Assembly (NCBI GenBank): GCA_023268715.1
Contig: JALRLV010000006.1
Span: 1 to 48,532 of the forward strand
Source of the DNA: Candidatus Thalassarchaeaceae archaeon
Lineage (GTDB): Archaea > Thermoplasmatota > Poseidoniia > Poseidoniales > Thalassarchaeaceae
Direction: 5' to 3'
Length of the DNA stretch: 48,532 nt
Position 1 is the first letter of the stretch. Each line of letters begins with the position of its first letter. Below the pieces are notes generated by a model that saw only the letters and a program-made list of their open reading frames with translations, ran no database searches and was not told the DNA's origin. Of the stretch, positions 17,445-35,893 are shown piece by piece. The position numbers and the translations under genes are program-made.

Positions 17445-17470
17445 GAGTTTGCGAGTGCGACTGCGATTGA

Positions 17471-17478
17471 AATATATG
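17471..17478 (-). promoter_or_regulatory. TATA box of the surface-protein operon
   Basis: The minus-strand sequence CATATATT is centred about 30 bases before the ATG at 17444, predicting a nearly leaderless transcript for the two repeat-protein genes. Confidence 0.55.
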
Positions 17479-17551
17479 ACTACGGAATAATCTTGTTTTT
17501 TAGAGCAATCTTCACCGTTACACTCTTTGACCGAATCTTCAACCATTGCAC

Positions 17552-18861: not shown

Positions 18862-18880
18862 CGACCACCATAGGTGGTCG
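18862..18880. promoter_or_regulatory. Perfect inverted repeat between TATA box and start codon, candidate operator
   Basis: CGACCACC-ATA-GGTGGTCG is an 8-base perfect inverted repeat with a 3-base spacer. It fills the space between the TATA box and the predicted transcription start of the giant lipoprotein gene. A dimeric repressor bound there would block polymerase recruitment. As the region is probably not transcribed, an RNA hairpin is less likely. Confidence 0.55.
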
Positions 18881-18885
18881 AAAAT

Positions 18886-21800
18886 ATGGTAGCAAAGCCC
18901 GAGACGGCTGTCCTCCTCACTCTGCTGATGCTATCTTCTGGATGTTTGGGACTTTTCGAGGATACCTCTGTTGAACCTGAGGTGATTGATTGTGAGATGC
19001 AACCCAACCATCCAGATTGTATTGACGAACAGATAACCGAAGATGATTGTTGGCTGGATCAAGTCTTCACAGGTACCGAATGTCGTCAAATGCAAAAGCC
19101 CGAAGGCCTGTCTTATGGTTTGAGCACGGTGTCCCTGATTATTGGAGAAGAAATGCAATCATTAACTCCCTCATTTACAGGAGATGGCCCTCAATTTTGG
19201 GTAATTAATCCGAGCCTCCCCTCAGGAATCATATTCGACAGAGATAGTGGAGTGATTTCAGGCACTCCTGATGAGGTAAGCCAATCAGTTCGATACACAA
19301 TTATCGGGTCAAATGCTATGGGTTCAACAAATGTCTGGATTGACCTAGAGGTGATTATGATACCACCTTCTTCTATTCTTTATCTTGAAAATACTCTTGT
19401 TTGTGAGTTAAACAATCCTTGCGGTTTTACTGCCCCAACTAATGAAGGAGGAACAATTGAAGAGTGGTCTGTAAGTCCACAACTGCCCATTGGTTTCTCT
19501 ATTTTCGCTGATGGTTCTGTTTCTGGAATTCCTAGTAATTTCGGGGATTCTAACCATACAATAAGTGCCTCAAACAGAGCAGGTTCAGTTGAAACCACAA
19601 TACGAATCATCGTAATACATGAAGCCCCAATGGGGTTGGGATATGGAAGCAACAATTTGCAGTTTAGTATCGGTGATGTGGTTCAGGTAGTCCCTTCTAC
19701 TACCGGTGGAGAAATCACCTCATGGTCTATCGAGCCACCATTGCCTCAAGGTCTCGATTTATTGCAAATTGATGGTTCAATTCGCGGCTCGCCTACAGAG
19801 GTTCAGAGCCTCACAATGCATCGTATAACTGCTGCAAACTCAGGTGGTTCAATTTCAGTCGATGTTCTAATTAGTGTAGCAGACATTCCTGTAACAAACC
19901 TACTTTACAATCCTTGGGAACATGACCTAAGAATCGGAGAACAGATATCGATTACACCCTCATATGTCGGCGGAACACCCGACTCTTGGCAAATTTCTCA
20001 CAGTTTACCTTCAGGCTTCCAATTCAATTCTGCTGATGGTACAATTTACGGTATTGCGACTGATGTACAAAACTCTTGGGAAACTTGGACAATCTGGGCA
20101 AATAACACTGGAGGGTCGACTTCTACAATCTTCAGAATAAAAGTTACAAGCATGGCTCCCGATCTAATTTCATGGGACTTCACTGAATATATTCTCGAAG
20201 CGAATCAGAGTACATTTATTCAGGTGAACAATGATGGTCCAGGAATAGATACTTGGGAAATCGAGCCACAACTTCCAAGCGGCTTATCTATTCTCGACAA
20301 TGGTAGTATTTCCGGTACTCCTACACACAACACAGATTGGGTAGAATATACAATTTGGGCGAATAACTCGGGGGGCTCAGTTGGTCTCCTTCTTTGGATT
20401 GTGGTTCATGATTTACGAGCTGATCAAGAAGAACTCTTACGCGGTATGGGGGAAACCAATTGGGGCGGTTGGCCATCTCCAATTCTACCGATTGGAGAGT
20501 GGTCTTTCCCTGTTGGCTTTGCAGAGGGTGGCTATACAGATAGTATTCCAGTAATCTCTGCCAGCCATGTTGGCAGAGGCAAGATGCTTGGATATGGTCA
20601 CGAAAGTTGGGTCGATGGCGGTGGCACCGAAGAGACAGAATTTTCTCTTCGTGCGGTAGAATGGGTATGTGGTGAAAATGCAAACGTTGGGCTTGCTTAT
20701 GGTGCTGGATTCGACGACTTTGAAGACGAGTTGCAGGCCCAAGGGCACACAGTACATCTCTCTGTAACGCCTGCAGATCTTTCTGGAATTGATTGTCTAT
20801 TGGATGAATTTTGGAATGGGCACGACAATCAAGACAATCTGAATTTAATCAATTTCGTGCTTGCGGGAGGTGGGTTGATTATGGGGGGTCATGCTTGGTA
20901 TTGGTCATACTCAAATTCAGATGTAGCCCACAATTATCCCGGTAACAAGATTGCAAAAACCACCGGGCTTTTCGTATCCCAAGCATGGGGCTACAACACT
21001 GTAAATCTAGCCGAAATCCCTCACTTATTGACAAGACCACAATCCGCAATTCAGGCAATTTTTGATGATCGAATAAATAACCAAAAACTATCCCTCGCGG
21101 ATGCTTCAATCGCAGATTCTACGCTCTCGATTTGCACTGGAGTCGTGAGTTTGGATTTCCATGATTTCTGGTCTCCACTTCGTGACACTGTCAACGCAAC
21201 AGGATGGACAGTAATCGAATATGGAACTCTATGGCAGAATGTAGGGCATGACATGGGAGATGACCCAGTTGCCGACACTTTACTCAGGGTCGAGGCTGCG
21301 CTAACACAAGGCCTTCCAGCAAACGAATTACCAGCTCACCCTAGCCATGTGGAATTTCCTGGCGAGGTGCCTACAAATGCCACTAGAGTGTCAACCACTG
21401 TTTCGGTTGATGGTAACCAAAGTGGCCTTCCGAGTAACTTTGGTTATGCGGGTGCTAGAGCTCATGTTAGGATGAGCACTGGACTATATGCTGCACCAGG
21501 AGAAGTTGTGACAGTAACCCTTCCTTCGGAAATAGTCGACTCAGGAACCTACGTCTTGGTTGGTGCTCATAGTGACAGGTTGTGGTCAAAAACCCAGTTA
21601 CATCGACATCCAGAAATTGTTAGATGGTGGTATGTTGATAATGTTAGCATGGAGGTTGGGAATGCCTTCGGGGGACCAATTTACATTGCAATAGAACCGG
21701 GTTCAACGTTGGGCGTTTTCCAAGTTAATTTCTCAAATGCGGTAGAGGCTCCGATGTTTGTTCTTGGAGAGACTTCCGACTTTGAATGGATATATTCGCA

Positions 21801-22887
21801 AAGCGATAATCCCGCTCCTTGGGCCGAATTGGTTTCGGATAATTTCATTATGACAGTACCAAGCCATGAAATTCGGGATTTATCCAATCCAACAGATCTT
21901 ATGGACTGGTGGGATATTGCTCTAGAAATGGAGCATGAATTGTATGGTTACTTACCTTGGCCAAGAGTAGAGCGTGCGGTCTTTGATGCTCAGATATCAG
22001 CAGGTTGGATGCATTCTGGATATCCATTCATGGCTCATGATTTGAGCGTGGCAGGAGTAGTCAATCTGTCCTATATGTCAGAGAATGGAGATTGGGGGAT
22101 GTTCCACGAATTAGGACACAACCATCAATGGATGCCTTCAACCCTTCCGGGGACAACAGAAACTGGGTGCAACTTTGCTAGTGTCTATCTGATGGAAGAT
22201 TTGGTTGGAATAGAGGGCCACAACGCAGTTGACCCTGCTCAAAGAGCGAATCGTATGAGGGGCTATTTTGATGATGGCTCTAATATAGCCAATTGGTCCG
22301 TTTGGACTGCCTTGGATACCTATTTGATAATCAAAGAAGAGTGGGGTTGGGATCCGATAACTCAAGCCTTAACGGTATATTACACATTACCTGCGGCAGA
22401 GGTTCCAACAACTGGTGATGAAGAATTCAATGCCTGGGTTTTACATCTTTCAAATGCGACAGGGTTCAATTTAGCACCTTATCATGACGCGTGGGGATTC
22501 CCACTAACACAGAATACACACGATTCTCTTTCTCATTTGCCAATCTGGGTTGAAGATCCGTTACGAGGAGAATATTTCACCTATCAAGCGATACTTAGAA
22601 ATCTAGGGGTGAATAATACGACATCCAGCAGTTCAACATTTAGTTGGGAAACTTACGATAATGGAACGAATACCTCACTAACAATTTACTACGGGCCAAT
22701 GGATATGGGCAACCAATCTTGGGTTTGGGCCAATAGTGCACCCTTAGGTGACTCAGCAGTTGGTTGGTCAGATTACGAAATTACAGGTCTATCTAGTAAT
22801 TCGACGTACTACGCCAGAGTCAAGGCTTCGAATGAAAATGGGAACACATGGTTCGGGCCAGTAAATTGGACTACATCCGCTAATTGA
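18886..22887 (+). CDS. Giant surface lipoprotein with five Ig-like repeats and M60-family metallopeptidase domain (1333 aa)
   Basis: The N terminus carries a lipoprotein signal (LLTLLMLSSGCLG, lipobox LSSGC). Five putative-Ig (He_PIG-like) repeats follow, each with W-x-I/V-x-P-x-LP-x-G-x-x-x-x-x-x-G-x-I-x-G-x-P, over about residues 70-500. Next is an alpha/beta region (about 510-720) with GGGLIMGGHAWYWSY and YPGNKIAKTTG, as in the domain that precedes M60 in animal TCAF/FAM115 proteins. Then comes a peptidase M60 domain: HELGHNHQW with zinc histidines H1074 and H1078, and a following glutamate in GTTETGCNFASVYLME. A fibronectin-III-like domain ends the protein (about 1245-1333). M60 enzymes cut glycosylated or mucin-like proteins, so a role in degrading glycoprotein is likely. 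The ATG at 18886 is chosen over GTG 18874 from TATA spacing. Confidence 0.88.
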   Translation: MVAKPETAVLLTLLMLSSGCLGLFEDTSVEPEVIDCEMQPNHPDCIDEQITEDDCWLDQVFTGTECRQMQKPEGLSYGLSTVSLIIGEEMQSLTPSFTGDGPQFWVINPSLPSGIIFDRDSGVISGTPDEVSQSVRYTIIGSNAMGSTNVWIDLEVIMIPPSSILYLENTLVCELNNPCGFTAPTNEGGTIEEWSVSPQLPIGFSIFADGSVSGIPSNFGDSNHTISASNRAGSVETTIRIIVIHEAPMGLGYGSNNLQFSIGDVVQVVPSTTGGEITSWSIEPPLPQGLDLLQIDGSIRGSPTEVQSLTMHRITAANSGGSISVDVLISVADIPVTNLLYNPWEHDLRIGEQISITPSYVGGTPDSWQISHSLPSGFQFNSADGTIYGIATDVQNSWETWTIWANNTGGSTSTIFRIKVTSMAPDLISWDFTEYILEANQSTFIQVNNDGPGIDTWEIEPQLPSGLSILDNGSISGTPTHNTDWVEYTIWANNSGGSVGLLLWIVVHDLRADQEELLRGMGETNWGGWPSPILPIGEWSFPVGFAEGGYTDSIPVISASHVGRGKMLGYGHESWVDGGGTEETEFSLRAVEWVCGENANVGLAYGAGFDDFEDELQAQGHTVHLSVTPADLSGIDCLLDEFWNGHDNQDNLNLINFVLAGGGLIMGGHAWYWSYSNSDVAHNYPGNKIAKTTGLFVSQAWGYNTVNLAEIPHLLTRPQSAIQAIFDDRINNQKLSLADASIADSTLSICTGVVSLDFHDFWSPLRDTVNATGWTVIEYGTLWQNVGHDMGDDPVADTLLRVEAALTQGLPANELPAHPSHVEFPGEVPTNATRVSTTVSVDGNQSGLPSNFGYAGARAHVRMSTGLYAAPGEVVTVTLPSEIVDSGTYVLVGAHSDRLWSKTQLHRHPEIVRWWYVDNVSMEVGNAFGGPIYIAIEPGSTLGVFQVNFSNAVEAPMFVLGETSDFEWIYSQSDNPAPWAELVSDNFIMTVPSHEIRDLSNPTDLMDWWDIALEMEHELYGYLPWPRVERAVFDAQISAGWMHSGYPFMAHDLSVAGVVNLSYMSENGDWGMFHELGHNHQWMPSTLPGTTETGCNFASVYLMEDLVGIEGHNAVDPAQRANRMRGYFDDGSNIANWSVWTALDTYLIIKEEWGWDPITQALTVYYTLPAAEVPTTGDEEFNAWVLHLSNATGFNLAPYHDAWGFPLTQNTHDSLSHLPIWVEDPLRGEYFTYQAILRNLGVNNTTSSSSTFSWETYDNGTNTSLTIYYGPMDMGNQSWVWANSAPLGDSAVGWSDYEITGLSSNSTYYARVKASNENGNTWFGPVNWTTSAN

Positions 22888-23950: not shown

Positions 23951-25228
23951 TCACCCGATAATCTGAGTAATTCTAGTTTCGACTTCTACTATTTCGGATA
24001 CAACCGAAAAGGCAGAAGAAATTGATTCGGAAAAGCCATCGGGTAATTCATTTCTATGATAGATTACAATCAATGGCTCACCAATCTCGATTTCATCACC
24101 AACTTGCGCTTCAATAATTGCGCCAACTGCGTGGTCTACACTATCGGTGAGAGTTTGTCTACCCGATCCTAGTTCTAGACACGCGAGTGCAATCGACATT
24201 GCATCGATATCCTGAATCCATCCGTTTTTCTCGACATAAATCTCAGTCGAAAGTAAATTATCGTCGAGTAAGCCAAGCGAACTTAGCATCGAATGGTCGC
24301 TTGAAAAGTCATTTCGATTTCCACCTTGGGATTCTATCATCTCTAGGAATTTTTCGAAGGCGCTTCCGTCGTTCAGAGAATTATGAATCATCAAAGCCCC
24401 CTCTTCCATATCTTCAACAATTCCGGATGCTGCCAAAAGAATTCCTGCCTGTACACATACTAGTTCTTCTAGATCATGCGGACCACGTCCACATAGTGTT
24501 TCGACGGATTCAACAATTTCTAGTGCATTTCCTACCGCGCAACCTATTGGTTGATCCATTGTTGAAAGGACGACAGAAGTGGTAATTCCCATGCCATTGG
24601 CGGCGTCTGCCATCGATTGGGATAATGCCTCGGCTTGTTCTCTTTCTTCCATGAATGCGGCTCTGCCATATTTGACATCTAGAACCAATGCAGAAAGCCC
24701 CTCTGCAGCTTTTTTCGAAACAATTGATGAAGTGATTAATGGAATAGATGCAACTGTTCCGGTTACGTCGCGTAGGGCGTACAACCTTCTATCTGCAGGG
24801 ACAAGTGAATCTGTCTGACCAACCATTGCTAATCCGATTCTTTCAACCTGTTTTTGCATTTCATCTATAGATAGGTCTACTCGAAAGCCAGGAATGCTTT
24901 CCAGTTTATCCAAAGTGCCTCCTGTGTGCCCCAAACCTCGTCCAGATATCATCGGCACTTTGAGCCCACAAGCGGCAAGGGCAGGGGCTAAAACGATTGA
25001 GACCTTATCACCTACTCCACCTGTTGAATGCTTGTCAACGACTAGATGACTCCACTCTTTTGGCCAAGTCAGAACTTTCCCGGAATCTCTCATTAATTCT
25101 GTTAGAGCGGTAGTAGATTTCTCATCCAGTCCGTTTTCGAATACACTTCGCAACCAATCGATGACTTGATCATCACCAAGTGAACCATCGACGACTCCAT
25201 TTACAATATCAGCGATTGAATCGCTCAT
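23951..25228 (-). CDS. deoA: Thymidine (pyrimidine-nucleoside) phosphorylase, bacterial type
   Basis: The enzyme cleaves thymidine with phosphate to thymine and deoxyribose-1-phosphate. Signature segments are DKHSTGGVGDKVS, MISGRGLGHTGGTLDKLESI, and LVLDVKYGRAAFM with the phosphate/pyrimidine-binding lysine. At 425 residues it lacks the N-terminal extension of archaeal AMP phosphorylases (about 500 aa) and matches bacterial DeoA/Pdp, suggesting acquisition from bacteria. The start overlaps the stop of the upstream PhoX/PLD fusion gene by four bases (ATGA), with GAGGAT as ribosome site, so the two are translationally coupled. This coupling to a secreted phosphodiesterase hints at use of nucleosides derived from external DNA. 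Confidence 0.93.
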   Translation of the reverse strand: MSDSIADIVNGVVDGSLGDDQVIDWLRSVFENGLDEKSTTALTELMRDSGKVLTWPKEWSHLVVDKHSTGGVGDKVSIVLAPALAACGLKVPMISGRGLGHTGGTLDKLESIPGFRVDLSIDEMQKQVERIGLAMVGQTDSLVPADRRLYALRDVTGTVASIPLITSSIVSKKAAEGLSALVLDVKYGRAAFMEEREQAEALSQSMADAANGMGITTSVVLSTMDQPIGCAVGNALEIVESVETLCGRGPHDLEELVCVQAGILLAASGIVEDMEEGALMIHNSLNDGSAFEKFLEMIESQGGNRNDFSSDHSMLSSLGLLDDNLLSTEIYVEKNGWIQDIDAMSIALACLELGSGRQTLTDSVDHAVGAIIEAQVGDEIEIGEPLIVIYHRNELPDGFSESISSAFSVVSEIVEVETRITQIIG

Positions 25229-28200
25229 GTCTCATCCTCGCCGTATTCATCGCGCAATTCTTCGATACTCATCCCCTTGTCCAAGAGGAACTGGACTTGA
25301 TTTCGGTCAAGTTTATCGAAGCCAAATCCATCTAAAACAATCTGACCGTGTACTCCATCATCTCTACCTTCTGTCCACTCCCGAGTATCCTCAGATTCTT
25401 CATCGAATCGTGTCCCCTTTAGAATAGCCTGTTCAGCATCAGCATCATCGAATCTATATCCTGAATCGTCGATTAGTCGAGAATCGGTTTTTATTCTTGG
25501 TCTTCTTACCATTGTTAGGCCTGCACCAATCAAAGAAGTCGCTGCAATTATCGTCAGTGCCAACAAGAATTTAGCACCCGGAGCCGAGAGCGGATCGTCT
25601 CGAACATTATTCTCTAGCCAACCCCTATTTCCTTCGTCATTATTATCTCCATCAATGCCATTGGTATTGTTTGTTTGACCGTTGTTGTTATCGATGATTT
25701 CTTCTTCATCACAGCCAAATTGTATTCCATCCGGGATCCCGTTATTATCTACGTCGCTAGAACTCATGGCCACTATTGGCGACCTTCCTAATGATTGAGC
25801 AAATTCAGCCTCTTGCCCATCCAGAATACAGTCATCATCAGTGTCGTTATCATTTGGATTTCCTCCCCAAAGGTATTCGTTTAAATTGTTTAATCCATCT
25901 TCATCTAAATCCAGTGATTGTTCACTTAGAGCAGTTCCAAGCACGGCTGCGGAATGTCGATTCAAACCGTATTGAATCTCCCACATATCCGGAAGTAGGT
26001 CACCATCTGAGTCTGTAGTTGCGTCAAGTCGATGCCAATCTTCGTTGAATGATTGTAGATAATCAGAAGTTATTGATTGATCATGAATTAATACACTCAT
26101 TTCTCTATTTCTCAATGCCGCATTTGAACCCCAATTCATGCTTCCAACAAGAACGCTCTCCCCATCGATTATTGCACCCTTATTGTGTAATTTTGTAATC
26201 GAGTCAGAATATGCCATTAGTCGTGCTGTGGTATCCAAGCCCTCTGTTGCATTCCAATTTGTATTGAACAGGTTAACTGCATCTCTAATTTCATCATCGC
26301 TGTTTGCATAAAACCCGTTCAATAGTAAGCGGACTTGTACTCCTCTTTGGGCCGCTTGGTAAATTGCTTCAATGATTGGATTATCACCGAATCCCCAATA
26401 CCAATCTAAGTCTAAGTATTGCAATGAAAGTTCAATTGTTGAATCCGCGGCGTCAATCATTTCGATAATTCCATCAACACAATCGTCTGGACATGTCATC
26501 AGTTGCATTTCCATAGGACCTGAATATGCTTGGGTAGTAGGTGCTTGTAACGAGGTCCCGCTGGTTTCGTCCATTATCCAATCGGAGGTTGGTGCATGAT
26601 TCGATGAGTGTGGTGAGATGTGTAGGTGATTCTGATTTTCGTCCCAAGAAAGACGAGACATAACTAGCTCAGCAAAGGAAACTGAGTTGACAATAACCGA
26701 CCACTCTCGATTACCTATTCCATCTGGTGGTAGGCTTGTATCCTTCCAGTTTCCTGATGAAATCCATACACTTTCAGTATCTCTAACAGCAACCTTGCTG
26801 TGAATGTAAGTATACGGAGAACTGATCAAACTTGGGTCCTCCATCCAAAGAACGGTTGCTCCAGCATCATGGAGTGTTTGGGCATGACCTCTTTGGTTAT
26901 TTTTTGTACTACTTCCATCGAGTATACCTTCTTCAAGTAGAATTGTGACTGAAACGCCTCGATTTATTGCTTCCAGTAATGCAGTAGTTAGGTCCGGGCT
27001 CATAAATTGGTAGACATGTAGATGAATCGATGTTTCTGCATCCTCAATCCAGTGCATTAAGTCATTAAATGATGTATCAGGACCAATAGAAGATGAGACT
27101 GTAGAGGATTCTTCTAGTGTAATTTTTCCTCCATCACAGAAGGTTGAGGCTCCAATTCTAATCCACCTGTATTCCCAATCTTCGCCCATATCTGTGTCAG
27201 GATTATCTCCACAGCCAGTGCCTCGCATCAAAATCAGTCCAGGCGTACCATCTCCGGGTACTGAAATCGCTGCACCATTCCATCCTTCGATTTCAGCATC
27301 ACCTCCTCCGTATACAACTGCGTCAACAACAGTTCCATCAGGAGACTTTAGTTGAAGGGCACTTCCAGAATCGACAAGCCAGGGCATATTGTTCATGACA
27401 ACATTTCCATCCATCGCAACAATTCCACCATCCGAGAATAGATTGTTCGGATTTTCAGTCAATACAACCGAAGCTCCTGCTGGTATAACCAGTTCGTTGA
27501 AGGTTGAAATCCATGGGGTTGTTGACCTTATTCTTTCAATTGTCCAACCAGTGAGGCTAATTTCTTCATCTCCGGTATTCGTCAATTCAAACCAATCATT
27601 ATCTCTGTTCGGGACCTCACCAGGCATAATTCTGGAAAACTTCACATCAAATTCGTTGTCCCAGTCAGATGGCTCAGCGGGAGGCTGCCAATGCCAAACC
27701 ATGTTATTTTCGTGTTTTCCAGTATCCTCTGCAATCAACAGACTGCCATCGTTGAGTACAGCCAGATTATCCGGTCCAGCAATTCTGTTTACATCACAAC
27801 GACCTGAAGAATAACTTCCACCCGCTTCTACAGGCTCCATTCTAGTAACATCCCACTGTTCGTTCACTGGTAAACTGTAAATTATTCCACATCGATTTTC
27901 AGAGAGTTGAATATCTCCTGAAGAATCTGTCATATCGTATCTGATGTCCGACATAGCAAGATAGAGGTATTCAGGTGAGTTCTCATTGAATACTACGCCT
28001 TCCATCTTATTCCATTCATCGGTTGCTCCCAATGCAGCCGCTGCCTTTCTCGATTCTAGGAACGCTACTCGATTATCAGCAGCAAAGCCAACATTTCCAT
28101 CGCCATCAAGGTCATCGTCAAGCCTATGCTCTGCCCAATCATTGATTTCTTGATCAGAAATGTACGAATTCTGACCGTTGATAAAGTCGGAAGTATCTAT

Positions 28201-29793
28201 TCCATCATATTGGTCAATCCAACTTGTTATTTGAGCAGAATTTGAGTTCCCTAATTCGACCCATGTGACATCAAATCCAGTGGTAGCTGGATTGCTCCCT
28301 GAGTCTTGGTTTACCTTCGCAGCGTAAAGAGTCCCTGAATGCAAATCTCCTGCGGAATCTGCAATAAATTTGAACAATACAGTACCATATTCATCATCTG
28401 ACAAATAAACCGTTTTCCTATCCGGCATTACCTGCGCATTTTCGTGAGAAAATCTTCCAAGAGGGTACAATCTTTCAAACTGAGGGTTTTCAGTTTCTGC
28501 ATCTTCAACTTCAATTATCCAACCGTAATCATACGGATTTGGATAGAATCCTAGATAGTCTGCCAACTCTAATTGGTCTTGGTGATAATTGTAATTGGGA
28601 TTATTCCAATCAATCGTATCATCAAAATATAATTCCTCAGAGAGTAGTGGGGTGCCCCATGGGCTCAACGAACCAAAGCAAAGGACCCAGCCTCCATTAA
28701 TTCCACTTAGGTCTAGCATTTTTCCACCGATAGTATCCCATTCACCGGACATATCGTTCCATTCGATATGGAGTTGGCTAACTCCACCGGGGCGGCTCTC
28801 CCAAGTGGAGTATAGGTAACCCTCAGTTCCTTGGGGATTCGTAGGTACAAAGACATTGAAATCAGGTTTTTCACTAGTGAACAATAATGCTCCATCATCT
28901 GCAGCATAAATTCCACCAGCAATATCGCCATTGCTGAGTGAGTCGCCTGATTGTGCCAATACCTGGTATGTACCTACTGATGTTCTAACTCCATGCCAAA
29001 TATCTGATTGACTAATTGTCGACGGAAGTTCAGGAATAGTCTCCGGTAAATCATTCCAATCAAACCCATTTACTACACCAATTGTCGCTTTGTATGGGTC
29101 ATCAGGGTGCATTGCGCTGACGAACAAATTGCCCATTGAATTGACGTGTAATCCAGTAGCTTCAGCACCGTCAGGAACCATCATTATTCTAGTTAGGTCG
29201 CTGGGAGTTGGTGGGTCAGGGTCGCTAACAGGATCCCCGCCAGAGTTCTCATTTCCTGGTGTCGGCTGATCAGAATCAACCCAATCTCCACCGGTTCCCG
29301 AAGGTATCTTTGAGACTCCATTGGCTGCTTGTCCTGTTGTGATTTCATGGATTATGATATCCTGAGAGTCTTTGAGAAATACTGTTTCTCCAGCATTATT
29401 CAAACGTAAAGTGCCGATTTCATTTTCTGCGATAACAGCGTATGCTCCTGGTTCTATGGTGTAAGGCGTGGCTAAATCTGCAAAGCCGACCCAACTGCTT
29501 TGGTTTATTGGATGGGTCCAACCACCGATATCGACAATTGTCCATCCCTCTAGGTTCACAGAATTAGAACCGGTATTGAGAAGTTCAACCCATTCACCTT
29601 GAGGAAAGATTCCCTGGTCGGATCCATCTGCATTGGGCATTAGTTCGTTTATACAAACTGTACATGAGGAATTCTTTATTGTCTCCCGAAATTCATTAGA
29701 GGAATCTACTTGTAAATTTGGAGAGGGACCAAGCAGACTTATCATCAATATAGCAATGATTGCCAGTGCAGGCCTTGCTGTCCGCCATTCCAT
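25225..29793 (-). CDS. Secreted fusion: lamin-tail / PhoX-like phosphatase / lamin-tail / phospholipase D, membrane anchored (1522 aa)
   Basis: A signal sequence (ARPALAIIAILMISLLG) leads to a lamin-tail domain (INELMPNADG...GEWVELLNTGS, about 45-150). A region resembling PhoX/DUF839 alkaline phosphatase spans about 200-740: SPWGTPLLSEE (W379), LGRFSHENAQVMPDRKTVYL, KMEGVVFNEN and PDNLAVLNDGSLLIAED. A second lamin-tail follows (about 750-860). A phospholipase D unit has two complete HxKxxxxD motifs, HSKVAVRD (H998) and HNKGAIID (H1203). Calcium-loop repeats, one membrane helix (FLLALTIIAATSLIGAGL) and an acidic cytosolic tail end the protein. Expected action is extracellular hydrolysis of phosphoesters in lipids or nucleic acids. 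The frame extends to a GTG at 29883; the ATG at 29793 suits the signal peptide. Confidence 0.85.
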   Translation of the reverse strand: MEWRTARPALAIIAILMISLLGPSPNLQVDSSNEFRETIKNSSCTVCINELMPNADGSDQGIFPQGEWVELLNTGSNSVNLEGWTIVDIGGWTHPINQSSWVGFADLATPYTIEPGAYAVIAENEIGTLRLNNAGETVFLKDSQDIIIHEITTGQAANGVSKIPSGTGGDWVDSDQPTPGNENSGGDPVSDPDPPTPSDLTRIMMVPDGAEATGLHVNSMGNLFVSAMHPDDPYKATIGVVNGFDWNDLPETIPELPSTISQSDIWHGVRTSVGTYQVLAQSGDSLSNGDIAGGIYAADDGALLFTSEKPDFNVFVPTNPQGTEGYLYSTWESRPGGVSQLHIEWNDMSGEWDTIGGKMLDLSGINGGWVLCFGSLSPWGTPLLSEELYFDDTIDWNNPNYNYHQDQLELADYLGFYPNPYDYGWIIEVEDAETENPQFERLYPLGRFSHENAQVMPDRKTVYLSDDEYGTVLFKFIADSAGDLHSGTLYAAKVNQDSGSNPATTGFDVTWVELGNSNSAQITSWIDQYDGIDTSDFINGQNSYISDQEINDWAEHRLDDDLDGDGNVGFAADNRVAFLESRKAAAALGATDEWNKMEGVVFNENSPEYLYLAMSDIRYDMTDSSGDIQLSENRCGIIYSLPVNEQWDVTRMEPVEAGGSYSSGRCDVNRIAGPDNLAVLNDGSLLIAEDTGKHENNMVWHWQPPAEPSDWDNEFDVKFSRIMPGEVPNRDNDWFELTNTGDEEISLTGWTIERIRSTTPWISTFNELVIPAGASVVLTENPNNLFSDGGIVAMDGNVVMNNMPWLVDSGSALQLKSPDGTVVDAVVYGGGDAEIEGWNGAAISVPGDGTPGLILMRGTGCGDNPDTDMGEDWEYRWIRIGASTFCDGGKITLEESSTVSSSIGPDTSFNDLMHWIEDAETSIHLHVYQFMSPDLTTALLEAINRGVSVTILLEEGILDGSSTKNNQRGHAQTLHDAGATVLWMEDPSLISSPYTYIHSKVAVRDTESVWISSGNWKDTSLPPDGIGNREWSVIVNSVSFAELVMSRLSWDENQNHLHISPHSSNHAPTSDWIMDETSGTSLQAPTTQAYSGPMEMQLMTCPDDCVDGIIEMIDAADSTIELSLQYLDLDWYWGFGDNPIIEAIYQAAQRGVQVRLLLNGFYANSDDEIRDAVNLFNTNWNATEGLDTTARLMAYSDSITKLHNKGAIIDGESVLVGSMNWGSNAALRNREMSVLIHDQSITSDYLQSFNEDWHRLDATTDSDGDLLPDMWEIQYGLNRHSAAVLGTALSEQSLDLDEDGLNNLNEYLWGGNPNDNDTDDDCILDGQEAEFAQSLGRSPIVAMSSSDVDNNGIPDGIQFGCDEEEIIDNNNGQTNNTNGIDGDNNDEGNRGWLENNVRDDPLSAPGAKFLLALTIIAATSLIGAGLTMVRRPRIKTDSRLIDDSGYRFDDADAEQAILKGTRFDEESEDTREWTEGRDDGVHGQIVLDGFGFDKLDRNQVQFLLDKGMSIEELRDEYGEDET

Positions 29794-29879: not shown

Positions 29880-32567
29880 TCACTCTTCTTCTTTCGATTC
29901 TGCTAGAGGCCCTGTGCCAGAGAACCCTAGTGCTCCAACAGCAATCATCGCGATACTCGCAATATACAATGCTGCAGTTATGATATCGATTGTTGCAGTA
30001 CCCTCCAATTCACAATCTCCACTTCCGCCGAAATCAGTCCAGTACATAGGCTCCATATTGTCCAGCACCCGACACTTGAAAGTTTCAGCATCTTCATCCC
30101 CAATTTCTGAGAAGGTATGAATTTCGAAAACCGGATGTGTGTCTACATCCATCTCAGGATTAAGCATTCCAGGACCTCTTAGGTCTAGGTGGAACATAGA
30201 GATGGATTTACCGTACATCGCAACTTGGGTAACAGGCTCTACCTTGATGTCTACGGTTGAACCAAAGTATACGGGTAATGCACCCGGAAGTACATCCACA
30301 AAGGATGCAGAGCCAATTAATTTCGCTTGTATTTGGTTTTGTGATGGGTCTAGGTTTACTGTGTGCGCTCTCATTTCAATTCCCTTGTATGTTTCCATAT
30401 TCCCTGGTACTGATTCAGCCATAGCATATCCTACAAGGTTGACCTTGAATGAATTTTCACTGTCTGCGACCCCACCAACAGCACCAGCAACTACGGTGTT
30501 GTCGTTACCGACATGGGCTGATAGTAGTCCCAGAGTTGAGGTTTCTCTGTGTGGTGCCCTCCATGGGAGGTGCTCGGTGAATCCGTACAATTCGCCATCT
30601 TCACAGGGGTACATCCCACTTGAGTCTGCATTTGCCATTGTTCCATCCGAATTCAACTTGAAATCACAGTGTCCATCTCCGTCAGAATTGATGTATCCCT
30701 GGCGCAATCTTTGTCCCATATCTTCCCCATCTGTACTTGCGACATATACATCATAATCTCCAGTAGTAACGCTATCCGAGCCGAAGTATGTTTCATTTGT
30801 TTCGAGACTTACCCAACCCAATGCCATATTGTCAGGTTCTCCGTAAACAACATCGGCCACGATGATGTCTCTCCAGCCGAACAACCAGTTATCGACTGGC
30901 TGGGTGATGAAAGCGGATCCGCCGTATTGGAAGCCCAATAATGCCCCAATTACTTGGTCGAACATGAAATCCGCAACCCAACTTCGAACTGCCGAGGCAT
31001 CAGATTCCGAAATATCGTAAAGTCCTGCGACATACGCATCATTCCAATCAGTTGTTTCGCCTCCTTCTTCTGTTGGAAGAGTGCTTCCTGAAAGCTCTCC
31101 GTACATGAATACACGTGCGAAATCGGAAGTCAAAGCATAAGGAGATGTGTAAAGGATCTCCTGTACCTTAGCGACATCCATGTCGACTGCACCTTCGAAA
31201 TCTCCTCGATTAAGGCCAATAGGTATGTATCCTCCAGCAATTGGCTCCTCGCCCCCAAAGGAAAGTTGCCACCAATCATCAGCATTGATCGTACCTTGGC
31301 CACCTGCGAGAATCATTTCAAATTCAGTTGGGGTGCCAACTAGGCCAATCCATTGTCCAGCGTAATCCGACAATCCTAGTAGTTGAGTCAGTCCAATTCC
31401 ATATGTTGTCATAGTTCCGAATAAGTCTCCATCGGCACCGAGCAAGAATAATGCAACGCCGTTTAATGGGATTCCACTGTAGTCGGATACAGATAGAAGT
31501 CCGTTAGCAATGTCTGCATCAGGAGTTCCGAATAGAACCCCATTCAATACATCTGGATCTGCAATGTCGACTCCGCTGACTTCATCCAATCTCTCCCTCA
31601 AGTCTGTGGCTTCAGAGAGCTCGGCACCGCCTCCACGAGCAAGGAAAGTACCTCCTGCCAGAGAGTATACTGCCAGATCGATTGCATTCATTTGTTCGCC
31701 AGAATCTGCATAACCATACAAAGCGGCTCTAGTTTGGGTAGTCGCTCCACCATCCGGGGCACCCATGCCTGCGACAAGCATAGGGCCGATGTCACAGGTA
31801 AGAGCAATACAAGTTCCAGTAGAAGGGTCGACTGCATCAGTCATTATTCCATCAGTGTATGTTGAGAAATCAGGCATCCCGTCGCTGCTTCCACCATTTG
31901 CTTGCATGTAAGCGCCCGCCAGGGTCCCCACTGCTCCGTTAGCTGCAACCAATCCAGAAATGTCTTCTGAGGCCCAAATTGAAGGTGCTCGGTTTTGCAG
32001 ATCGTTGGCTATCATGCTGTTAGCGAATCCAGCCTTAGCAAATACTTCACCATAGATTATTCCGGTTGATATTCCGGCGATTCTTTGAGTATTCCATAAG
32101 ATGTTAACTTGAGTGATTTCAGTTGAACCAGAAACAGAATTGTGTGAATCTCCATTGTCATCTATCCAGGTACAGTTCTCGCACCATTCAAAACTATCAA
32201 ATTCAGAATAAGTTATTTCCCCAGCATCATAATCAAAATCTAGAATTTCTCTAGTTGTTGTGACTTCGTAGATGAAAGGCCCCATTTTCGTAAATTCATG
32301 TGCTTCTCCCGCATCTACACCTTCTGGGTTATCTAGAGAATATGCGAAATATACTCTCTCCGAGGTCGATACTAACCATTCATCATCATAATCATTGGTG
32401 TAGTTTTTGTTTCCGTCGTCATCATAGCCATCATAGCCATCGGCGACTGCATCAGCCACACCTGCTTCTACTTGCCCTGCTACAAACGGCGCTAATGCTA
32501 GGAAATTAATCCCAATTAACACAAGTCCAGTCACTAACAGTACGCTTGCCTTTTGTTGGTTGTCCAT
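29880..32567 (-). CDS. CD36/LIMP-2/SR-B family membrane protein (895 aa)
   Basis: Topology matches CD36: a short cytosolic N terminus, one helix (about 7-30), a large external domain, a second helix (about 860-882) and a short charged tail. Family motifs occur in the right order: VYFAYSLDNPEG...KMGPFIYEV (GPF at 96-98; CD36 has N-P-E...GPY-x-Y-R-E), EITYSEFDSFEW, then FITQPVDNWLFGWRD (W561-D567; CD36 has ELLWGYKD), VDIKVEPVTQVAMYG (CD36 has VDINPxTG) and MEPMYW near the second helix. It is about 400 residues longer than human CD36, mostly from an insert at about 190-540. Eukaryotic members bind or move fatty acids, lipoproteins and sterols. A function in lipid capture is inferred. The ATG at 32567 has GAGTGAT upstream. 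Confidence 0.8.
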   Translation of the reverse strand: MDNQQKASVLLVTGLVLIGINFLALAPFVAGQVEAGVADAVADGYDGYDDDGNKNYTNDYDDEWLVSTSERVYFAYSLDNPEGVDAGEAHEFTKMGPFIYEVTTTREILDFDYDAGEITYSEFDSFEWCENCTWIDDNGDSHNSVSGSTEITQVNILWNTQRIAGISTGIIYGEVFAKAGFANSMIANDLQNRAPSIWASEDISGLVAANGAVGTLAGAYMQANGGSSDGMPDFSTYTDGIMTDAVDPSTGTCIALTCDIGPMLVAGMGAPDGGATTQTRAALYGYADSGEQMNAIDLAVYSLAGGTFLARGGGAELSEATDLRERLDEVSGVDIADPDVLNGVLFGTPDADIANGLLSVSDYSGIPLNGVALFLLGADGDLFGTMTTYGIGLTQLLGLSDYAGQWIGLVGTPTEFEMILAGGQGTINADDWWQLSFGGEEPIAGGYIPIGLNRGDFEGAVDMDVAKVQEILYTSPYALTSDFARVFMYGELSGSTLPTEEGGETTDWNDAYVAGLYDISESDASAVRSWVADFMFDQVIGALLGFQYGGSAFITQPVDNWLFGWRDIIVADVVYGEPDNMALGWVSLETNETYFGSDSVTTGDYDVYVASTDGEDMGQRLRQGYINSDGDGHCDFKLNSDGTMANADSSGMYPCEDGELYGFTEHLPWRAPHRETSTLGLLSAHVGNDNTVVAGAVGGVADSENSFKVNLVGYAMAESVPGNMETYKGIEMRAHTVNLDPSQNQIQAKLIGSASFVDVLPGALPVYFGSTVDIKVEPVTQVAMYGKSISMFHLDLRGPGMLNPEMDVDTHPVFEIHTFSEIGDEDAETFKCRVLDNMEPMYWTDFGGSGDCELEGTATIDIITAALYIASIAMIAVGALGFSGTGPLAESKEEE

Positions 32568-32601
32568 GGTATCACTCAAGCCCCCCTCGTGTGCCCGAAG
32601 G

Positions 32602-32674: not shown

Positions 32675-34330
32675 TTAAGCAAAGCCGAATGCATCTAATT
32701 CCCTTGCGAAGGTATACACCATGATTGGAACTAGAATCACACCCATTCCGTGCGACCTTCGGATACCAATTCTAGGTGCCATAAGACCGATCATTGTTCC
32801 AATAACTAAAGTTCCAACTCCAATCCAATCTGTAGATATCCAAACTAGAATGGTAATGAAAGCACTAACCGAAATCACTAGGTTTCTGAGAGGTACTAAT
32901 TCGTGCATTTTCAACATACCTTTTCCGACCTCAATCATTACTGGAACAGCAAATAATCCTGATGCGACTGTAATAGCAAGCAGTCTAACGAAATCGGCAG
33001 GCGGCTCAACAGCATTCCAAATGTCGATCGGATACATCATATTCAATGCTAGAGCGGCTCCAGAACGTGGCCTTCCTACCATGTACAGGAAACCCAGAAC
33101 CATAACAGTGACTGCGGTGTTGACAGACGATAGAATTGCAATAATCTCTAGGTCTCTTTGTTGATTATTGTTGACCAAATCCAAGTCTGGTGTAGCACCT
33201 GCTTCGGAGAGCGCCTCTTGGAATAACAAGCGATCATCATCCGATAGGTCATCCATCCCCTCAAACACCATCATCTGTGGCATCTGTTCAAATCCAGGTT
33301 GAGTTCCATGCTCGAAATCTGCTGGAATGTAGTTGGGGTCGGTAAGTTTACCCCAAAAGTTTCGAGCACTCATAACTACGACAGTTGCCTGTGCCGCAGT
33401 CATTCCTGGAAGGATTGCCATAACAGAAGAAACTACTGCTGAAAGGAATGTTGGAACTGCCAAGGGTTTAGGGTCTGGCATTTCCCAATTTTGTTCTTGG
33501 GGTGGAATTTCGCTTGTTGTTACGTAGATATCAATTAGGTTTGCAATCCCAAATAATCCAGCTAAGCTAGGGAATAACAACGAAGCAGATGGGATTCCAA
33601 CCGGTGATCTAGCGGGTAATTCGAATACCGCCCACCCATAGAATCCGGTAAGTAAGAAATAGGCCGTTGCAACTAGTATTCCAGCAACTCTAGAACTTTC
33701 CCCGAGTCGAAAATCAATCACATCATATCGTCTTCGAATACTGAGTCTCCCCATCGGTATAGTAAACTCCACTGGTTTTTTCAATGGCCATTTTAACTTC
33801 TGAGTTATTTTTTGTGACCAAACTGGCCATGGTAATCGCGTTGTTTCAGTCAAAATTAGGAATATGGAGATGAATAATAGAATCCATGGTAATTGTTCAC
33901 GGCTTGCTTCATACAAACCCAACCCCGGATTTTCTCCGAAAAGTAGGCGCGCAACAATTAGCAGAGGAATTGACATCAGCATACCCATTTGGGAGCCGCG
34001 AGCAGAATATGCAACACCTTGAGCGGCTTGACCAGAAATCAACATCCTATGTCCCGGAAGTAAAGCGAGTGCCATGTTGTCATCGGGTGCTCCTACCAAT
34101 GCACTTGGAATGTAATTAAGGAATGTGTGAACAGTTCCACATGCAACAATAATCCCTGCTACTGCATCTAAGGGGATACCAATGCCGACAGCAACAGGTG
34201 ATAGTGACAAAGCGATCAAAGCGACGTTATTTACGTGGAAACCAGGAATTAATCCAGTCAAACAACCAAGGAATATCCCAAAAATAAATGACCCAATTAA
34301 CCAACCAAAATCGATTAACCAAGGGTCCAT
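32675..34330 (-). CDS. TctA-family (COG1784-like) polytopic membrane protein
   Basis: About twelve hydrophobic segments fill the 551 residues. The N-terminal helix pair with FGIFLGCLTGLIPGFHVNNV is the glycine-rich TctA signature in the form seen in archaeal COG1784 proteins. TctA proteins are the large membrane subunit of tripartite tricarboxylate transporters, but archaeal versions usually stand alone, and no TctB or TctC partner is here. The substrate is unknown; an organic acid is a reasonable guess. GAGGTG six bases before the ATG overlaps the end of the upstream OB-fold gene, so both are cotranscribed. Confidence 0.85.
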   Translation of the reverse strand: MDPWLIDFGWLIGSFIFGIFLGCLTGLIPGFHVNNVALIALSLSPVAVGIGIPLDAVAGIIVACGTVHTFLNYIPSALVGAPDDNMALALLPGHRMLISGQAAQGVAYSARGSQMGMLMSIPLLIVARLLFGENPGLGLYEASREQLPWILLFISIFLILTETTRLPWPVWSQKITQKLKWPLKKPVEFTIPMGRLSIRRRYDVIDFRLGESSRVAGILVATAYFLLTGFYGWAVFELPARSPVGIPSASLLFPSLAGLFGIANLIDIYVTTSEIPPQEQNWEMPDPKPLAVPTFLSAVVSSVMAILPGMTAAQATVVVMSARNFWGKLTDPNYIPADFEHGTQPGFEQMPQMMVFEGMDDLSDDDRLLFQEALSEAGATPDLDLVNNNQQRDLEIIAILSSVNTAVTVMVLGFLYMVGRPRSGAALALNMMYPIDIWNAVEPPADFVRLLAITVASGLFAVPVMIEVGKGMLKMHELVPLRNLVISVSAFITILVWISTDWIGVGTLVIGTMIGLMAPRIGIRRSHGMGVILVPIMVYTFARELDAFGFA

Positions 34331-34339
34331 TTCAACACC

Positions 34340-35893
34340 TCATCTGACATCTATACAGAATTGCATTGTATTCCCAACAGAATCTTCGGTGGTAGATAAT
34401 CTTCCAGTCCAATCAAGAGGCCCTTGACCCTCTGCTTGGCTTGCCTCAGTTCCATCTCCAAGTAGACAGACCCTTTCTTCCGATCCAGACCTCTGAATCC
34501 ATTGGTTACCATCTGCGTCCATAACTGCCTCTCCATTAATAACGACCAGTTTCCCAATATCCCATTTCCAAGAGTTGTAACCGTCCCCCCAGTTCAGTGT
34601 GTTTGGAGATGGCGGTTGACCTAGAGTCCAAGAACGGGCTTCAAGAATAACTCGTCCATCGCTTTCGGACCAGATTATTGTCGCATTGAATCGTATTGAT
34701 TGACCTCCTTCGATATATTCTGCATGCTCACCAATTAGGTGAATTCTTAGTTTGGTTTGGCGTGCGAAGTAATCTGCTCCGTCTCCGACGTATCCTTTGT
34801 CGTAATCTGGAGGTATAGGGTCAGTAATCCATCCTTCGAATGTATGGTTCTGATTAAGATAACTAAATGGATTCTCGGCAACATCTAGTAGAGGAGTTAC
34901 ATCATCTCCAAAGTTACCTGCGTTATTTTCCGCCTTATATCCGTCTGCTCTCAGACAGATGGTTGCCTCATCTGTTGACCAGACCAACCGACCATACCAT
35001 TTTCTTTCGACACCCTCCAATCCTGCATCTACATCTTCTTGTGAAGGCAATAAACAGAGCCGGTCGGTTGGAGAATTTCCGATTAACCACCATGTGCCGG
35101 AAGATTTGGTTGCTGTTCCCTCAATTGATACATTCTTTCCAACTTCATAGGTCAGTGTGTAGGGTTCTAACTCCCATGATAAGTCAACAACGGATCCTTC
35201 GTTTAGAACTTCAATCGCGGTTGCTTGTACTAATAATCTCCAGCGAAGCGAACGCTGATCATATTGTAGCCACCCAGAAATTTCCACATGGCTTCCTGCT
35301 TCTATCCAATCGATTACTCTCCCTTCAATTTGCATGTACAACAAGTGGTCCGCATTTCCATAGGAGGGGTTGTCCATAAGGCTCAATGAATGGTACGTGA
35401 CATCAGGTTCAAGAGATTCGGACAAATAACCATCAACTTTTACCGACATGTTAGCGAAGTTCTGAGGATTCATTGCGACTTCGACCAATTGCATAGCCGT
35501 GTACTCTATCGAGTCGCAATCGGAATCAGCACACACTATAGCGCCGTATCCATTTGATGACAACCAAATTCGACCGTTCCATTCAGTCACTTCTCCTTCG
35601 ACAGTGATTACGGTACCAATAGGGGGAATCTCATTATTTCGGTCTACAAACCATCGGACTTCGACTACCGAGTGGCCATCCACTTCTCTAACTTGCAAAT
35701 CTATTCTGTCCGCTTGTTCACCATATGGGTCAACGACGAAACTAGTTAGCACTCCTTTGACCTTCACAGATTCCCTAGGATATTCATGAATCTCGTCAAT
35801 TTCAATCAAATCGGGTTCTCGTATTACCGCATAGAAATTCATTGTAGATACTAGCAAAAGAGATGTGAAGAACATCACCCAAAGTTTCGCCAT
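34340..35893 (-). CDS. Secreted or membrane-tethered protein of repeated OB-fold-like domains (517 aa)
   Basis: An N-terminal helix (LWVMFFTSLLLVSTMNFYAV) acts as signal or anchor. The remainder looks like three or four beta-barrel modules, each beginning with a V-x-V/I-x-G-x-x-x strand and ending with a cysteine segment: VKVKGVLTSFV, MSVKVDGYLSES, NVSIEGTATKSSGTWWLIGN and LVVINGEAVMDADGNQWIQR. This recalls the OB-fold (tRNA_anti-like) domains found in some archaeal exported proteins, a fold often binding nucleic acid or sugar. It is the first gene of the minus-strand cluster; a TATA-like GAATATTC lies at about 35924-35931. The family cannot be named with confidence. Confidence 0.75.
   Translation of the reverse strand: MAKLWVMFFTSLLLVSTMNFYAVIREPDLIEIDEIHEYPRESVKVKGVLTSFVVDPYGEQADRIDLQVREVDGHSVVEVRWFVDRNNEIPPIGTVITVEGEVTEWNGRIWLSSNGYGAIVCADSDCDSIEYTAMQLVEVAMNPQNFANMSVKVDGYLSESLEPDVTYHSLSLMDNPSYGNADHLLYMQIEGRVIDWIEAGSHVEISGWLQYDQRSLRWRLLVQATAIEVLNEGSVVDLSWELEPYTLTYEVGKNVSIEGTATKSSGTWWLIGNSPTDRLCLLPSQEDVDAGLEGVERKWYGRLVWSTDEATICLRADGYKAENNAGNFGDDVTPLLDVAENPFSYLNQNHTFEGWITDPIPPDYDKGYVGDGADYFARQTKLRIHLIGEHAEYIEGGQSIRFNATIIWSESDGRVILEARSWTLGQPPSPNTLNWGDGYNSWKWDIGKLVVINGEAVMDADGNQWIQRSGSEERVCLLGDGTEASQAEGQGPLDWTGRLSTTEDSVGNTMQFCIDVR

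Follow-up and report, generated by a model that had tools for sequence, protein, structure and literature searches.

A circularly permuted PhoX module in a lamin-tail and phospholipase D surface protein of a Marine Group II archaeon, probably serving nucleic-acid scavenging

The window, that is, the whole stretch of 48,532 nucleotides analysed here (contig JALRLV010000006.1, assembly GCA_023268715.1), comes from a Marine Group II archaeon (Thalassarchaeaceae) and carries on its minus strand one gene that joins lamin-tail domains (LTD), a PhoX-type phosphatase module and a phospholipase D (PLD) unit in a single predicted surface protein. The open reading frame (ORF) of 1,522 codons is intact, from an ATG at 29793 to a stop at 25225, and the named relatives with the same gene are Candidatus Thalassarchaeaceae or Marine Group II. 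The protein contains the following features:

25225–29793, minus strand: whole gene, LTD-PhoX-LTD-PLD-PLD-anchor, 1522 residues (ORF call and Pfam)
29728–29793, minus strand: N-terminal hydrophobic signal, ~residues 1–22, Sec-like, without a twin-arginine motif (sequence)
29335–29667, minus strand: lamin tail domain 1, residues 43–153 (Pfam PF00932)
27676–29208, minus strand: PhoX module, residues 196–706, an in-frame insert absent from many orthologues, modelled as a propeller (Pfam, orthologue alignment, model)
29065–29199, minus strand: permuted segment, residues 199–243, TPSDLTRIMM...NGFDWN, the last blade of standard PhoX placed at the front (profile comparisons)
28678–28680, minus strand: Cys372, equivalent to Cys179 of Pseudomonas fluorescens PhoX (alignment)
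28633–28638, minus strand: Glu386 and Glu387, equivalent to Glu193 and Glu194 of PhoX (alignment, 26/26 sequences)
28441–28443, minus strand: Glu451, equivalent to Glu273 of PhoX (alignment)
28393–28395, minus strand: Asp467, equivalent to Asp292 of PhoX (alignment)
28000–28008, minus strand: Lys596-x-Glu598, equivalent to Arg385-x-Glu387 of PhoX (alignment; Arg to Lys as in Psip1, PMC11098088)
27769–27771, minus strand: Asp675, equivalent to Asp479 of PhoX, in a PDN motif (alignment)
27274–27675, minus strand: lamin tail domain 2 region, residues ~707–840 (second LTD stretch in Pfam; alignment of relatives)
26656–27057, minus strand: PLD half-domain 1 (PF13091)
26779–26802, minus strand: HKD motif 1, HSKVAVRD, residues 998–1005 (motif scan)
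26035–26469, minus strand: PLD half-domain 2 (PF13091)
26164–26187, minus strand: HKD motif 2, HNKGAIID, residues 1203–1210 (motif scan)
25684–26022, minus strand: aspartate-rich Ca-type loops, putatively thrombospondin-3-like (sequence; Pfam TSP3_bac match in an orthologue only)
25510–25578, minus strand: membrane anchor, ~residues 1406–1428 (hydropathy)
25228–25482, minus strand: acidic tail of 85 residues, probably cytoplasmic, conserved in the genus (alignment of relatives; hydropathy)

The domain order is thus N-terminal signal, LTD, PhoX, LTD, two PLD half-domains, aspartate-rich Ca-type loops, membrane anchor and 85-residue tail. Pfam profiles recover all three families in the one chain, each above its curated cut-off: two LTD matches (PF00932, 116.6 bits), two PLDc_2 matches (133.3 bits) and a PhoX match (PF05787, residues 365–697) of 94.5 bits against a cut-off of 24 (E 1.1e-26), the last spanning only positions 157–454 of the 515 in the profile. 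ORF and profiles therefore agree with an earlier note, made by a model from the letters alone, which had proposed a one-chain fusion of signal, lamin-tail modules, PhoX and PLD on a membrane tether; hydropathy likewise finds a hydrophobic N-terminus and one C-terminal membrane segment. At least ten other genomes, each assembled independently, have this fused gene whole, and fused copies, full-length or cut by contig ends, occur in ~16 other assemblies; the gene is thus no assembly artefact or chimera. The PhoX, LTD and PLD parts are all under purifying selection where dS could be estimated, with a dN/dS of ~0.03–0.07 for PhoX. In the open-access literature searched on phosphorus or PLD enzymes of these archaea, nothing on this protein was found.

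Metal-site residues of the PhoX module were compared with what we take to be the numbered ligand list of P. fluorescens PhoX (PDB 3zwu), in which residue 179 is presumably the thiolate ligand of Fe. The equivalents of Cys179, Glu193, Glu194, Glu273, Asp291 (Asp466 here), Asp292, Glu387 and Asp479 are invariant in all 26 aligned proteins. Lys596 occupies the position of Arg385, as does a Lys in 22 of the 26 aligned relatives; this was handled as a variable position, and the mismatch was not treated as excluding PhoX membership, since the active phosphatase Psip1 has Lys there. The R385 and D292 named in PMC11098088 served as a check on the PhoX numbering, and a thiolate is known to ligate Fe in PhoX (PMC4223295). 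The PhoX-type motifs singled out in the earlier note proved real, one of them, WGTPLLSEE, having Ser at the position of the second Cys, Cys192. The idea that this Cys-to-Ser change in 'SEE' destroys the iron site was considered and rejected, since it is the Cys of GWVLCFG that aligns with the ligand Cys179. Judged by alignment, the module apparently keeps the standard Fe/Ca ligand set intact. No second copy of PhoX was found in this genome.

The order of the module differs from that of standard PhoX. In a profile of the archaeal module, the first residues match the C-terminus of PhoX, and of the 12 standard-order proteins compared (Paenibacillus, Bacillus, Sulfurovum and others), 11 match archaeal-profile positions ~6–46 right after the end of the main match at 518–520; each such N-terminal match is weak alone, and the evidence lies in their regular adjacency. 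Comparison by hhalign of the N-terminal 58 columns with the C-terminal segment of the standard-order family gave 96.2% probability (E 1.5e-9, 32% identity), in an alignment that takes in the EvTG, HP and IG-y-G motifs. On these profile comparisons the module is circularly permuted: what forms the last blade in standard PhoX has moved to the front, where it makes up the first ~50 residues. The permuted order is shared by alphaproteobacterial relatives, and colinear full-length matches to the archaeal module in Pseudoalteromonas and haloarchaea suggest that the permuted form is widespread. No mention of a circular permutation of PhoX was found in the open-access literature searched. Part of the PhoX family is thus permuted and apparently keeps its unusual iron–calcium site, which matters for the annotation of marine phosphatases; profile matches cover only part of the permuted proteins. 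Free-standing permuted PhoX proteins also occur in Poseidoniales (L119–L164), and the one scanned, L145, ends in a PGF-CTERM sorting-signal match near the cut-off (23.8 bits, cut-off 24.5).

An AlphaFold2 model of the module built on 64 diverse sequences reached a pLDDT of 90.1 and a pTM of 0.91; an earlier model from 15 near sequences had a pLDDT of 62. Foldseek against the PDB placed PhoX (4a9v and 3zwu) at ranks 1–2, with E values of 2.8e-14 and 1.2e-13 and the next match at 8.9e-6. These PhoX matches have an rmsd near 10 Å; their TM of ~0.5 probably reflects the permutation, which an alignment in sequence order is unable to trace. In VIA-align, DFPase-like propellers came out on top (Z 23) and PhoX was not among the best rows, which is not read as evidence against PhoX because a permuted, loop-rich propeller is there compared in sequence order. 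With invariant ligand positions and PhoX as the best PDB match, the region is not the plain propeller lacking PhoX ligands that the earlier note had allowed for. A catalytically dead propeller, kept for adhesion or DNA binding, is accordingly a very improbable explanation: the Lys in place of Arg385 and export without the twin-arginine (Tat) motif typical of PhoX would fit it, whereas the remaining metal-site positions examined do not vary among archaeal and bacterial relatives, selection is strongly purifying and the same Arg-to-Lys change is present in Psip1, which is active as an Fe/Ca phosphatase (PMC11098088).

Psip1, from marine picocyanobacteria, shares with the module a PhoX-like Fe/Ca propeller and the Lys at the Arg385 position, but lacks a detectable PhoX sequence domain and Asp292, whereas the module here matches PhoX at 94 bits and retains Asp292. 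Membership in Psip1, considered for the shared Lys and the occurrence of both in alphaproteobacteria, was not adopted, PF05787 being recognised and Asp467 (Asp292) being present; Psip1 was compared by its description. It has been described as convergent with PhoX since the sequences do not align (PMC11098088). Permuted PhoX bears on this view of a convergent origin for Psip1 and similar PhoX-like phosphatases, to which circular permutation or deep divergence would be alternatives.

PhoX is distributed unevenly among otherwise similar proteins. Outgroups have up to six LTDs and PLD with no PhoX, and at least five changes on the PLD tree are required to explain where it is present inside the Thalassarchaeaceae clade. 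One label on that tree, for locus L175, is doubtful: the ORF has a frameshift, and this alone makes it read as PhoX-less. In L175 (1–3164) the frame break lies inside LTD2 and identity to the window drops from 99% to 68%; the contig is probably chimeric, with recombination a possibility. One group of PhoX-less copies carries ETPTDL-QPSEW, which resembles the joined edges of the PhoX module (TPxDL and QPPAxPSxW) and therefore suggests deletion rather than primitive absence, so that at least one PhoX-less lineage looks like the bearer of a deletion scar. In UBA58 (L166/L178), the fused PhoX is 94–97% identical to the free-standing PhoX of another lineage, the LTD and PLD parts follow their own relatives, and both junctions lie inside contigs; by this pattern PhoX was captured here a second time, independently and at the same linker, provided that the two contigs are not both misassembled. 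Locus L117 (4210–9614) holds an L115-like LTD1-PhoX-LTD2 segment (94–100% amino-acid identity) in an L068-like background, with identity breaks at the gene start and near residue 900, consistent with homologous recombination having reintroduced or spread the module. On these comparisons, the LTD-PLD protein is conserved apart from PhoX, an in-frame module that comes and goes: it would have entered at least twice, with several losses and swapping by recombination.

Both HxKx4D motifs of the PLD unit are exact, as the earlier note had it, and intact in all 49 distinct relatives; no other PLDc_2 protein was found in this 86%-complete genome. Among solved structures, a profile of the PLD region matched the endonuclease Nuc first (1byr, 1.2e-16) and then MitoPLD, and the first phospholipase (7e0m, secreted, 5.8e-12) stood level with the nuclease NucT (7.8e-12). 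Homology alone favours a nuclease over a phospholipase, without settling the choice. The LTD is itself part of the characterised extracellular nuclease ExeM (PMC6085458) and occurs in DNA-degradation loci of marine-sediment bacteria (PMC8289736). Adjoining genes bear further on the substrate:

23951–25228, minus strand: thymidine/pyrimidine-nucleoside phosphorylase, whose start overlaps the stop codon of the fused gene by 4 bases (ATGA) (NCBIfam)
29880–32579, minus strand: CD36-family surface protein, upstream, in family f1 only (PF01130, 31.2 bits)
32675–34330, minus strand: TctA-family transporter, conserved upstream partner in 32/43 loci (locus comparison)
34340–35893, minus strand: predicted surface protein, weakly matching OB-fold (nucleic-acid-binding) profiles and kept as an upstream partner in 31/43 loci (locus comparison)

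The phosphorylase scores 456 bits against an NCBIfam cut-off of 269 and follows downstream, in the same orientation, in 41 of the 43 loci compared from two families of the order, the two exceptions having <1.2 kb of sequence left on the contig. Because of this linkage, nucleic acid is the likelier substrate compared with phospholipid, and the phosphorylase is the strongest pointer to it. Weak OB-fold matches recur in 9 of 15 members of the upstream surface-protein family, and this protein and the TctA-family transporter, an upstream pair in both families, are a possible uptake system for nucleic-acid products.

Harvesting of phospholipid phosphate would instead have a true phospholipase D act on membranes or lipid debris and PhoX dephosphorylate head groups or phosphatidic acid. 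The match to the secreted phospholipase 7e0m speaks for it, as does the adjoining CD36-family gene in family f1, animal CD36 proteins being lipid binders. The best structural relative by sequence is nevertheless a nuclease, the partner common to both families is the nucleoside phosphorylase, the CD36 gene is confined to family f1 (17 loci) and absent from the locus in the sister family, and after cleavage by a classical PLD the phosphate stays with the lipid, which makes a poor substrate for PhoX; we regard this explanation as unlikely. Of the two PLD substrates named in the earlier note, DNA, or nucleic acid generally, is retained, and phospholipid is the less likely one by gene neighbourhood and nuclease-type matches.

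Alongside the observed domain content, intact catalytic residues, permutation, module gain and loss and conserved neighbourhood, we infer activity, substrate, metals and cooperation of the two units: the protein is probably a tethered surface nuclease and phosphomonoesterase that scavenges nucleic acid. It would be exported and held in the membrane by its C-terminal anchor, displaying two catalytic units flanked by lamin-tail domains. The two HKD halves would form one PLD active site that nicks or cuts phosphodiesters outside the cell, most likely those of DNA or RNA, and leaves 5'-phosphomonoesters; PLD-type nucleases leave 5'-phosphate ends, as established for Nuc-type enzymes. From those ends, and from dissolved nucleotides, the permuted PhoX propeller may free phosphate, and the released nucleosides would be imported and phosphorolysed by the co-encoded phosphorylase. 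Fused PhoX would raise the local phosphate yield but be optional.

Two independent enzymes sharing only the anchor, with PhoX acting on dissolved seawater monoesters, PLD unrelated to it and no product relay, would account for the dozens of related species in which the same PhoX is a separate protein bearing a signal of its own, and for the LTD-PLD protein often lacking PhoX. At least two independent joinings of PhoX to this one gene, however, suggest a benefit of proximity, and we give such independence a small chance. A stronger form of the scavenging enzyme, a single-chain machine from DNA to phosphate and nucleosides, formed by repeated, horizontally spreading insertion of permuted PhoX into an LTD-PLD nuclease and passing its products directly, is a tentative and rather doubtful proposal.

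Several observations count against the scavenging enzyme. HKD motifs are common to nuclease and phospholipase PLDs, so the substrate call rests on a weak homology ranking and on neighbours, and the synteny count over 43 loci comes without a background rate for gene-order conservation in this order. Neither a phosphate (Pi) transporter nor a nucleoside transporter was identified in the gene block, and the few neighbourhoods of standalone PhoX genes checked had no phosphate-transport context. The twin-arginine motif is absent from the window protein and from 43 archaeal standalone PhoX copies and present in 3/3 Pf-type PhoX; as PhoX is usually Tat-exported with its metals (PMC4223295), metal loading must differ, probably through assembly of the site outside the cytoplasm, or else through another export route. 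Many orthologues with both PLD and phosphorylase also lack PhoX, which makes the phosphatase step an optional addition and a two-step scheme not obligatory. The tethered two-step phosphate-harvesting enzyme of the earlier note is hence plausible, with phosphate harvesting the most natural reading; its PhoX step does not hold as an essential one, given the many relatives without PhoX and the deletion scar.

The molecule is a new variant of known parts. P. fluorescens PhoX (3zwu/4a9v; PF05787) shares the propeller fold, the Fe/Ca ligand set, a Pfam score far above cut-off and the top Foldseek match; unlike it, the module here is permuted with the last blade first, has Lys for Arg385, lacks a Tat signal and is embedded between lamin-tail domains in a PLD protein. 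The ExeM/Xds nucleases (LTD, OB and EEP; PMC6085458) likewise combine a signal, LTD, an extracellular phosphodiesterase and a C-terminal membrane anchor, but their nuclease fold is EEP rather than PLD, they have no PhoX, and their OB folds are in the same chain, here possibly in the neighbouring protein. DNA-degradation loci of Ca. Izemoplasmatales (PMC8289736) also place an LTD-nuclease gene beside genes for nucleotide and nucleoside breakdown, although they are bacterial and have separate nucleotidases instead of a fused PhoX. Nuc/NucT and MitoPLD-type nucleases (1byr, 6ehi, 4ggj) share the HKD motif and are the closest PLD sequence match, but are single-HKD chains, whereas two HKD halves lie here in one surface-anchored chain. 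New here are the permutation of PhoX, the repeated capture of this module and, in a marine group that is abundant and uncultured, the link to the breakdown of nucleosides. The phosphorus acquisition of Marine Group II archaea is poorly known, and the locus offers a concrete route by surface digestion of nucleic acid, phosphate release and nucleoside uptake; a patchy, repeatedly captured phosphatase module is in effect a natural experiment on when phosphate scavenging pays.

The archaeal CD36-family protein at 29880–32579 scores over the PF01130 cut-off; proteins of this family are known chiefly from animals. A pair of neighbouring proteins with a very high aspartate content (11971–14610 and 14646–17546, minus strand; 879 and 966 residues) consists largely of thrombospondin-3-like calcium repeats, and a surface M60 (enhancin-like) peptidase with Ig-type repeats (18874–22887, plus strand) is conserved beside the locus in family f1.

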